NCBI GenBank assembly: GCA_017999985.1 | Contig: JAGNKU010000010.1 | Coordinates: 62,001 to 126,000 of the forward strand | Length of the DNA: 64,000 nt | Direction of reading: 5' to 3' | Origin: Phycisphaerae bacterium | Lineage (GTDB): Bacteria > Planctomycetota > Phycisphaerae > UBA1845 > Fen-1342 | Shown here: in pieces, positions 42,630-44,292 of the stretch | Numbering within the stretch: the stretch's first letter is position 1 | Layout of the letters: each line of letters begins with the position of its first letter | Program-made: the position numbers and the translations under genes | The notes under the pieces: generated by a model | What the model saw: only the letters and a program-made list of their open reading frames with translations | Databases searched by the model: none | What the model was told of the DNA's origin: nothing

Positions 42630-43847
42630 GTGACGTCGACTGCAAGCGGCGAGCCCGCGGGTCGGGTGCGGCAACGCGTTAAACGAGCTGCCGCGTGCGA
42701 GAGTGCCTTGAGCGCGCAGATTATAAACGCTTCTGACATAAACGCTTACGCGTCCGCGCTGGGCGACGCCGTGCAGGCACTGCGGGCCGGCCGCCTTGTT
42801 GTGTTTCCCACGGAGACCGTCTACGGCGTGGCGGCCAGTGCCGCGCGCCCGGATGCAGTGGCCCGACTGCGAACGGCGAAGGGCCGGGCTGACTACCAGC
42901 CATTTACCGTCCACATCGGCCAGCGGCGCCACGCCCGCCGTTTCCTCACGGACCCGTCGCCGGTAGCGCGCCGGCTGATGCGAAAGGGCTGGCCCGGCCC
43001 GCTGACGCTGGTGTGCGAAGAGCCGGCGCCGGAGCGCACGGAAATCGCCACGCTGTGTGATTCCGCGCAGTTGGCGGGGATGTATCATGAGGGCCTGGTT
43101 GGGCTGCGCTGCCCGGACCACGCCGCCGCGACCCGCTTTCTGAACGAAGCGGAAGTGCCGGTGGTGGCCAGCAGCGCGAACCGGCAGGGCCAGCCGGCGC
43201 CGCTGGATTTGCAGCAGGCGCTGCGGGACCTGCACGGGCTGGTTGACTATGCGATCGACGCCGGCCCGACGCGGCACAGCGCGGCATCGACGATCGTGGA
43301 GGTGCGTGGCAATGGCTGGCGGATCCTGCGGGCCGGTGCGGTGGATGAGCGGGTAGTGCAGCGGATGGCGCGGAGCGAGATTCTCTTCGTGTGTACTGGC
43401 AACTCGTGCCGGTCGCCGATGGCCGAGTACCTGTTCCGGCGGGCACTGGCCGAGCGGCTGGAGTGCCGCGAGGATGAACTGGCGGCCGCGGGCTATGTGG
43501 TGTCGTCGGCCGGAACGATGTCGCTGCGCGGTGGCGTGGCCTCGCCCGGGGCGATGGAGGAACTGGCTCGGCGGGGGGTGGATGGCGGCGGCCACCGGTC
43601 GCAGCCGGTGACCGTGGAGCTGATCCATCGCGCGGAGCGTATCTACGTGATGTCGCCAGAGCATCGCGCGGCTATCCTGGAACTGGTGCCGGCGGCGGCC
43701 GGACGAGTGTGGCTGCTGGATGAGACTGGACCAGTGGCGGACCCGATGGGCGGATCGGCGGATCAGTATCGTCGCTGCGCCGAACAGATTGAGCGTGCGG
43801 TGACCGCGCGAGTGGAGGAATTCCTGGATGAAGATCGCGATTGGTAG
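42630..43847 (+). CDS. threonylcarbamoyl-AMP synthase (TsaC/Sua5) fused to low-molecular-weight protein phosphatase
   Basis: The protein is 405 residues. The N-terminal YrdC/Sua5 domain (about 40-235) has R-L-V-V-F-P-T-E-T-V-Y-G, K-G-R, P-G-P-L-T-L-V and S-S-A-N-R-Q-G; it makes threonylcarbamoyl-AMP for tRNA t6A. The C-terminal LMW phosphatase domain (about 248-400) has the P-loop C255-T-G-N-S-C-R261-S and general acid D371 in A-D-P-M-G. The S in C-T-G-N-S-C resembles the Thr of YwlE-type arginine phosphatases rather than the Ile of tyrosine phosphatases. The start is uncertain: GTG 42630, or TTG 42708 nearer the domain. The last 20 bases overlap rpiB. Confidence 0.9.
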   Translation: MTSTASGEPAGRVRQRVKRAAACESALSAQIINASDINAYASALGDAVQALRAGRLVVFPTETVYGVAASAARPDAVARLRTAKGRADYQPFTVHIGQRRHARRFLTDPSPVARRLMRKGWPGPLTLVCEEPAPERTEIATLCDSAQLAGMYHEGLVGLRCPDHAAATRFLNEAEVPVVASSANRQGQPAPLDLQQALRDLHGLVDYAIDAGPTRHSAASTIVEVRGNGWRILRAGAVDERVVQRMARSEILFVCTGNSCRSPMAEYLFRRALAERLECREDELAAAGYVVSSAGTMSLRGGVASPGAMEELARRGVDGGGHRSQPVTVELIHRAERIYVMSPEHRAAILELVPAAAGRVWLLDETGPVADPMGGSADQYRRCAEQIERAVTARVEEFLDEDRDW

Positions 43848-44292
43848 CGACCACCGGGGTTTCGAGGCCAAGGAACGCATCAAGGCGTTGCTACAGGGCA
43901 TGGGCGTCGAGATCAATGACGTCGGCACACACGACAGCCGGCCCTGCGACTATCCCGAGCCGGCGCTGACCGTCGCGGAGGCGGTGGCACATGGCGCGGT
44001 CGACGGCGGCGTCCTGTTCTGCGGCAGCGGCATCGGTATGTCGATCACCGCGAACAAGGTCCACGGCGTGCGGGCGGCCCTGTGCCACGACGAGCTGACG
44101 GCGCAGATGGCGCGGCGGCACAACGACGCGAACGTGCTCTGCCTGCCGGCGGACCTGGTCGGCGACGCGCTGATGCAGAGCATCGTGCGGATGTGGCTGA
44201 AGACGGAGTTTGAAGGGGGCCGGCATGCACGGCGTGTCGAGAAGATTCGCGAGTACGAGCGCACCCACGACTCGGCGGGTCACTCCACCTGA
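43828..44292 (+). CDS. rpiB: ribose-5-phosphate isomerase B
   Basis: The protein is 154 residues. It opens M-K-I-A-I-G-S-D-H-R-G and has the active-site Cys C65 in L-F-C-G-S-G-I-G-M-S-I and the R-A-A-L-C-H-D motif. RpiB interconverts ribose-5-phosphate and ribulose-5-phosphate. It overlaps the TsaC-phosphatase fusion by 20 bases, so the two are co-translated; the same order (Sua5, phosphatase, RpiB) is seen as ywlC, ywlE, ywlF in Bacillus. Confidence 0.95.
   Translation: MKIAIGSDHRGFEAKERIKALLQGMGVEINDVGTHDSRPCDYPEPALTVAEAVAHGAVDGGVLFCGSGIGMSITANKVHGVRAALCHDELTAQMARRHNDANVLCLPADLVGDALMQSIVRMWLKTEFEGGRHARRVEKIREYERTHDSAGHST

Follow-up and report, generated by a model that had tools for sequence, protein, structure and literature searches.

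YwlE, the arginine phosphatase of Bacillus and Geobacillus (PDB 4kk3, 4kk4, 4etn, and 4pic), is a low-molecular-weight (LMW) phosphatase in which the P-loop position PX5 steers specificity, with Thr directing the enzyme to phospho-arginine (pArg) and Ile to phospho-tyrosine (pTyr), according to excerpts of PMC8001253. The same excerpts present PtpB of Staphylococcus aureus as a YwlE orthologue and phospho-arginine phosphatase, apparently unfused, that has Thr at PX5 and whose T11I variant gains activity on p-nitrophenyl phosphate. In B. subtilis, TsaD is stabilized by R282K, by loss of mcsB or clpC, or by excess ywlE, which documents a link between arginine phosphorylation and the tRNA modification N6-threonylcarbamoyladenosine (t6A) in that species (excerpts of PMC7546277). 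Here, we describe a gene in a 64,000-nt stretch of DNA from a Phycisphaerae bacterium (contig JAGNKU010000010.1, positions 62,001 to 126,000; the whole stretch is hereafter called the window) that encodes a YwlE-like phosphatase fused to TsaC, the synthase of L-threonylcarbamoyl-AMP (TC-AMP). Judged from sequence, the protein is most likely an arginine phosphatase that operon fusion has joined to t6A synthesis.

Other fusions of TsaC have been described. TsaN (PDB 8ide), a modular TsaD-TsaC-SUA5-TcdA protein, also carries TsaC within a larger fused enzyme, but its partners, going by the title, are t6A-pathway domains, whereas the partner here is a phosphatase. A study of Sua5/TsaC names HypF and TobZ fusions, and the word “phosphatase” occurs nowhere in its main text (PMC10321239). 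An LMW phosphatase of T. tengcongensis deposited as RpiB (PDB 4egs) is YwlE-like and tied to RpiB by name, but it would represent a different junction from the one in the window, if it is a fusion at all. Among the matches listed in the open-licence literature, we found neither a described TsaC–phosphatase fusion nor a study of arginine phosphorylation in Planctomycetota; one source joins both terms but, in its excerpts, merely cites arginine phosphorylation (PMC4395418), and the McsB/YwlE literature among these matches concerns almost only Gram-positive bacteria. What is new is the domain arrangement and, in some relatives, a decaying TsaC partner, both within known families.

A single chain combines TsaC and an LMW phosphatase

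The fused gene occupies a single open frame on the (+) strand (42630 to 43847, 405 amino acids [aa]) with a GTG start and no inner stops; a TTG at 42708 is an alternative possible start. Residues 41–242 (42750 to 43355, +) match PF01300 as well as the curated equivalog model for L-threonylcarbamoyladenylate synthase, TIGR00057 (145.4 bits versus a cut-off of 123.2), and retain the motifs TET, KxR (as KGR), and SAN intact, which identifies this half as TsaC. The likeness to TsaC/Sua5 lies in this N-terminal half; the protein differs in having no match to the SUA5 domain and in having a phosphatase next in the chain. Specifically, residues 251–392 (43380 to 43805, +) match the LMWPc family PF01451 (79.5 bits versus a cut-off of 23.2) and contain the P-loop CTGNSCRS (43392 to 43415, +), with Cys255 as the nucleophile and Ser259 at PX5 (a position defined in excerpts of PMC8001253). 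The general-acid loop (DPMGGS) follows, and its Asp371-Pro372 (43740 to 43745, +) falls in columns that are invariant across 59 aligned fused proteins, namely that of the window and 58 relatives with 30–44% identity to it. Fold, C-x5-R P-loop, and Asp general acid place this half in the LMW protein tyrosine phosphatase family. The first-pass annotation, made from the DNA letters, had claimed a TsaC and an LMW phosphatase in one chain, and both domains are indeed complete in this frame.

An AlphaFold2 model of residues 40–405, built from the alignment of the 59 fused proteins, was confident, with a mean predicted local distance difference test score (pLDDT) of 97 and a predicted template modeling score (pTM) of 0.92. 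Its TsaC part resembles Sua5/TsaC (Z-score of 27.8 over 195 residues to 6f89), and its phosphatase part resembles LMW phosphatases (Z-score of 24.6 over 146 residues to YwlE 4kk4).

The phosphatase half is closest to YwlE

The nearest PDB structures to the phosphatase half were those of YwlE (3e-17 to 4e-15), followed by 4egs (2e-13) and 2cwd (3e-12), while other tyrosine phosphatases in the ranking stood at 1e-8 or weaker and ArsC at 3e-4. YwlE has the same fold, 32–35% domain identity, and C-x5-R, its Bacillota relatives also adjoin tsaC and rpiB, and its counterpart kinase McsB is present in the genome of the window (see below). The protein described here differs in its fusion to TsaC and in having Ser for Thr at PX5, and its function is assigned from sequence.

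A quick tree of 87 phosphatase domains with SH-aLRT (Shimodaira–Hasegawa-like approximate likelihood ratio test) support, in which B. subtilis YwlE itself was not included and the unfused L106 and L112 carried the label of the fused planctomycete group, agreed with the PDB ranking in grouping the protein with YwlE-type rather than tyrosine-type or ArsC proteins. The window's protein lies within a 67-row group with other fused proteins and T-type rows of Bacillaceae (support of 86), separate from 12 tyrosine-type rows (99) and three ArsC rows (98); the tyrosine-type clade takes in 12 of the phylum's 13 Ile-type rows (99). Across 88 fused or long proteins (window counted), C-x5-R and a DP were kept in every case, and PX5 was Thr in 68, Ser in 12, Leu in 5, Ile in 2, and Arg in 1. 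By comparison, 19 single-domain LMW phosphatases of the phylum had Ile in 13, Thr in 2, ArsC-type Ser in 2, Leu in 1, and no match in 1, in a sample that leans to Ile types, having been taken mostly from the top of the Pfam list.

An arginine kinase and a ClpC-like protein occur in the same genome

The genome, with a completeness of 98.65%, contains one PF00217 protein (C11:28860-29456, 8.4e-67), which we assign to McsB: it passes NF002194 (415 bits versus 385) and falls under the NF053707 cut-off of 500. An McsA-like gene (131 bits, under the model cut-off of 210) overlaps the start of mcsB. A protein that we call ClpC-like has GTEH in both N-terminal repeats; in B. subtilis ClpC, the pArg docking residues are Glu32 and Glu106. 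The sole other LMWPc match in the genome is a thioredoxin-linked ArsC (L002) beside arsR- and arsM-like frames (named by eye), which leaves the fused protein as the one candidate arginine phosphatase with the LMW fold that we found. It is also the only PF01300 protein besides a 786-aa frame of HypF size, and its TsaC half is, on these grounds, probably active as a TC-AMP synthase.

We consider it likely that the protein is a two-headed housekeeping enzyme, at once the only TC-AMP synthase of the cell and a YwlE-type arginine phosphatase that reverses McsA-McsB, formed by fusion of operon genes. This account builds on the domains, their motifs, the presence of a single TsaC and a single non-arsenate LMW phosphatase, the kinase, the P-loop of the family, and the gene order. 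The N-terminal half would make TC-AMP for t6A on tRNA, while the McsA-McsB kinase would mark protein arginines and a ClpC-type unfoldase would take the marked proteins; the phosphatase half, if active on pArg (a step further with Ser at PX5), would remove the marks and thereby rescue those proteins from the unfoldase. Functional coupling of the halves is likewise conjectural: a phosphatase carried on the maker of TsaD's substrate could shield TsaD locally. Because YwlE is linked to TsaD turnover in B. subtilis, the fusion would offer a direct handle on coupling between t6A and arginine-phosphate quality control. Kinase, YwlE-type phosphatase, and ClpC-like protein are all found here, with the phosphatase chained to the first enzyme of an essential tRNA modification.

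Conservation of the TsaD arginine was considered as evidence of regulation and set aside. An Arg occupies Robertmurraya TsaD position 280, presumably B. subtilis Arg282 with a numbering offset, in 16 of 17 TsaD proteins, and this breadth more likely reflects structure. Two further observations concern the same machinery. A free-standing 200-aa protein of the window's genome (L269:1297-1899, +) carries two Clp_N repeats, with GTEH in the first and GSAH in the second, and adjoins a frame resembling YggS (named by eye). The B. subtilis control genome had no match to PF00217 or PF02861 (Clp_N), which suggests that it is without its ctsR-mcsAB-clpC stretch.

Gene order and distribution of the fusion

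A GTDB pattern scan with C-[TS]-G-N-T-C-R-S-P-M-A-E returned at least 117 stretches; the pattern requires an intact T-type loop, so dead phosphatases are invisible to it, and the fusions recovered outside the phylum are a sample only. In the 117 loci listed, TsaC was fused to the phosphatase in 30, upstream on the same strand in 48, absent in 13, and unknowable in 26, and RpiB was downstream in 73, fused in 1, absent in 19, and unknowable in 24. Thus, TsaC was fused or upstream in 78 of 91 judgeable loci and RpiB was fused or downstream in 74 of 93. The full TsaC-phosphatase-RpiB order was found in Bacillota, in Planctomycetota, and in L178, from a genome in the Verrucomicrobiota sample; Gemmatimonadota and Zixibacteria had only the TsaC–phosphatase pair, and other Verrucomicrobiota and one Krumholzibacteriota locus only the phosphatase–RpiB pair. 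The Bacillus-like order that the first-pass annotation had pointed out is shared with Bacillota, as read in loci of B. subtilis relatives; B. subtilis itself has the ywl order.

Fusions of TsaC to the phosphatase occur outside Planctomycetota in L145 (Gemmatimonadota) and L142 (Aerophobetes). In L140 (Fermentithermobacillaceae), a full Sua5 with its SUA5 domain is fused to the phosphatase, and L174 and L116 likewise hold long fused frames. Two Verrucomicrobiota fusions, a 759-aa phosphatase-RpiB-SHMT (serine hydroxymethyltransferase) protein (L168:1556-3832, −) and a 589-aa RpiB-SHMT protein (L195:4809-6575, −), extend the tsaC-ywlE-rpiB order to glyA. Fusions at each junction support an old tsaC-ywlE-rpiB-glyA operon, whose neighboring genes would have joined to give the protein in the window, and call for caution about the function of any single fusion. 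Several origins of fusion are suggested, though not proved, by the clade of L116, L140, and L174 (support of 99) and by L145, which lies among gemmatimonad rows that are unfused (88). The N-terminal stretches of L150 and L176 were considered as TsaC remnants and rejected, since neither was matched by the TsaC profile.

Used as a query, the fused protein had matches in 236 of the 246 genomes sampled from its phylum, which we infer to be Planctomycetota because named planctomycete loci fall among the relatives of the window. We read the two domains in a single frame in 99 of these genomes (87 plus 12 more), so the fusion is no chance event; the count is a lower bound, as the loci read were a subset chosen because they looked fused. 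Neither a genome without an arginine kinase nor a fusion confined to one strain, the two computable outcomes named as fatal in the first-pass annotation, was what we found. Among the planctomycete loci of the pattern scan, 7 of 30 are unfused (six without TsaC and one unknowable). The T-type CTGNTCRSPMAE phosphatase of two genomes from the same class as the window (G242 and G231) is unfused; TsaC was not found within the 8.0–8.5 kb around these genes, and rpiB was adjacent in G242 only.

Plain operon fusion, in which neighboring genes were joined without functional meaning and the halves work separately, accounts for these data almost as well and is the main rival as regards the meaning of the fusion, while being compatible with an arginine phosphatase identity. 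We give it a considerable chance of being correct, somewhat below an even one. It fits fusions at every operon junction (TsaC-phosphatase, Sua5-phosphatase, phosphatase-RpiB-SHMT, and RpiB-SHMT), the unfused T-type phosphatases of the same class, and the decay of the TsaC half beside an intact phosphatase (see below), and it fits less well with the persistence of the fusion in at least 99 of 246 sampled genomes, with the YwlE-TsaD link described in the excerpts of PMC7546277, and with the predicted fold that a decayed TsaC half keeps instead of being trimmed. The functional link to pentose phosphate supply suggested in the first-pass annotation is not supported by these data: fusions at all three tsaC-ywlE-rpiB-glyA junctions in different bacteria are what simple joining of neighbors would yield.

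In some relatives, the TsaC half decays beside an intact phosphatase

Thirteen planctomycete genomes, each at least 97% complete, were compared. In seven, that of the window included, the fused TsaC is the only PF01300 protein (HypF-size frames aside). In the remaining six (five from family f30, one from f2), an open frame of 325–350 aa, Sua5-sized by its length, encodes a PF01300 protein separate from the fusion, and the TsaC part of the fusion matches only at 5e-22 to 2e-5. All eight f30 loci have lost both the KxR lysine and SAN, with TET changed in seven; the three f2 loci have other residues in place of that lysine and of the Asn in SAN. All 11 phosphatase loops are intact. In addition, at least 6 of 16 key TsaC residues are changed in 10 of 23 fused planctomycete loci of the pattern scan, including Neorhodopirellula pilleata, the phosphatase loops of these 10 being intact by selection. 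On a phosphatase-domain tree (46 live and 18 dead rows; without L162), TsaC loss takes six changes, two of which are forced by supported branches.

TsaC catalytic motifs have therefore been lost in at least two planctomycete lineages with the phosphatase intact, an observation that is new here. The phosphatase thus appears to be retained for its own sake and the TsaC part to outlive its chemistry, and lineages with a motif-less TsaC half are natural experiments that separate the two roles. The decayed half of L068 is still predicted to adopt the TsaC fold (Z-score of 21.8 over 195 residues to Sua5; model pLDDT of 89 and pTM of 0.81). One idea that we consider rather unlikely is that the TsaC half steers the arginine phosphatase or serves it as a sensor, tying it to the t6A machinery (e.g., by shielding TsaD from McsB-ClpC turnover, in the way that free-standing YwlE acts in B. 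subtilis) or to threonine/ATP supply, and that a dead pseudoenzyme is kept for that role in planctomycetes with a separate Sua5-sized protein and, going by its motif loss, probably in N. pilleata.

Specificity of the phosphatase half

The phosphatase half could instead act on pTyr proteins or small molecules as a tyrosine or broad phosphatase, its likeness to YwlE being mere ancestry. Several results lean that way and weigh on the arginine phosphatase assignment. The structural Z-scores of YwlE (24.6) and the tyrosine phosphatases YfkJ (24.5) and Wzb (24.1) are tied, for which reason we discarded structural ranking as a test of specificity. The best phosphatase models of NCBIfam for this protein are tyrosine-phosphatase ones, all far under cut-off. 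The window's protein carries Ser at PX5, 8 of the 88 fused or long proteins carry Leu, Ile, or Arg there, and no test of Ser at this position was found in the excerpts of PMC8001253. The octamer CTGNSCRS, moreover, is identical in the genome's own arsenate reductase; the P-loop alone thus proves little, and the octamer was rejected as proof of pArg specificity. The closeness to YwlE by Thr that the first-pass annotation had read in the P-loop accordingly stands for the family (68 of 88) but only loosely for the window's protein, where PX5 is Ser and the octamer is that of ArsC. With Ser259 at PX5, we limit the claim to a protein that works like YwlE and is related to it by descent, short of proven membership. 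In the tree, the tyrosine-type and ArsC rows stand apart from the window's group, and the split between all 71 T/S-type and fused rows and the other rows has a support of only 63.

The tyrosine alternative is nonetheless improbable in our estimation, given that YwlE structures match eight to nine orders of magnitude better than Wzb-type ones, that all but one of the 13 Ile-type rows from the phylum fall in a group of their own, and that T/S-type loops follow McsB strength in Verrucomicrobiota while Ile-type loops do not. Specifically, among 174 Verrucomicrobiota genomes, T/S-type loops were found in 80 of 139 with strong McsB versus 2 of 35 with weak or absent McsB (Fisher test, 7e-9), compared with 56 of 139 versus 16 of 35 for Ile-type loops (P = 0.57). 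Strong McsB means an E-value below 1e-55, a cut set after the data were seen; the T/S-type contrast kept a P value of 1e-4 or lower at cuts of 1e-55, 1e-40, 1e-30, and 1e-20. G326, which is among the two T/S-type genomes counted in the weak-or-absent McsB class, has Cys at PX5 and is a false pattern match. Against this must be set that these statistics ignore relatedness, that the T/S-type pattern was not found in 59 of the 139 strong-McsB genomes, and that strict absence versus presence of McsB gave 1 of 6 versus 81 of 168 (P = 0.22), a contrast that we abandoned. With these limits, T/S-type loops track McsB strength in Verrucomicrobiota, and tyrosine-type loops do not.

Within the phylum of the window, co-occurrence lends no such help: McsB is present in 233 of 246 genomes, so a test there has no power and was dropped as evidence. 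Where the fusion was read (99 genomes), McsB was found in 94; PF00217 was unmatched in the remaining five (G053, G102, G162, G189, and G219; 73–90% complete), and six genomes that are 99–100% complete (G070, G088, G106, G168, G195, and G217) have McsB but no LMWPc match, both of which count against the pairing. Among 30 genomes with T-type loci (30 of the 117 listed, selected for breadth across groups), McsB occurs in 29.

Fusion of TsaC to a thioredoxin-linked arsenate reductase, to which the shared octamer could point, is scarcely credible, since the ArsC rows group in a clade of their own, the Q-M-A-E of ArsC is replaced by P-M-A-E in the fused protein, no redox cysteine pair was seen by eye in the fused protein where the genome's ArsC reads VCDHAHESC, ArsC models score 20–29 bits versus cut-offs of 158–215 (29 and 27 bits versus 215 and 174 for the pI258 type), and the identified neighbors, rpiB and a DUF2203 gene, are not ars genes like those around L002.

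Several observations on loops and kinases stand apart from this weighing. The six planctomycetes without an LMWPc match have strong McsB, that is, an arginine kinase without a YwlE-type phosphatase. Five Verrucomicrobiota genomes (G375, G378, G384, G398, and G444) have a divergent McsB (E-values of ~3e-43 to 8e-45), Ile-type loops, and no T/S-type loop by pattern; the kinase has possibly changed in this group. In eight loci of planctomycete family f62 (L044, L284, L285, L286, L288, L289, L290, and L292), the P-loop reads C-x-G-N-[TS]-D-R-S, with Asp for the second Cys; P-loop loss in this family was considered and proved wrong, as the catalytic Cys and Arg are retained in the loops seen. DP-loop residues were left unused as a second marker because the proteins have two DP motifs and the first one had been taken (DPYYG in 7 of 13 Ile-type rows and DP-x-G in 54 of 85 fused rows viewed, a discarded reading).

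rpiB and the local neighborhood

Downstream of the fused gene lies rpiB (43828 to 44292, +), which encodes a 154-aa ribose-5-phosphate isomerase B that passes TIGR01120 (181.1 bits versus a cut-off of 138.65) and PF02502. Its start overlaps the end of the fused gene in the +1 frame by exactly 20 bases (43828 to 43847, +), precisely the overlap given in the first-pass annotation, and rpiB is probably translationally coupled through it. Because the DUF2203 gene downstream is convergent and only minus-strand or short ORFs of uncertain standing lie just upstream, the fused gene appears to form a unit of two genes with rpiB.

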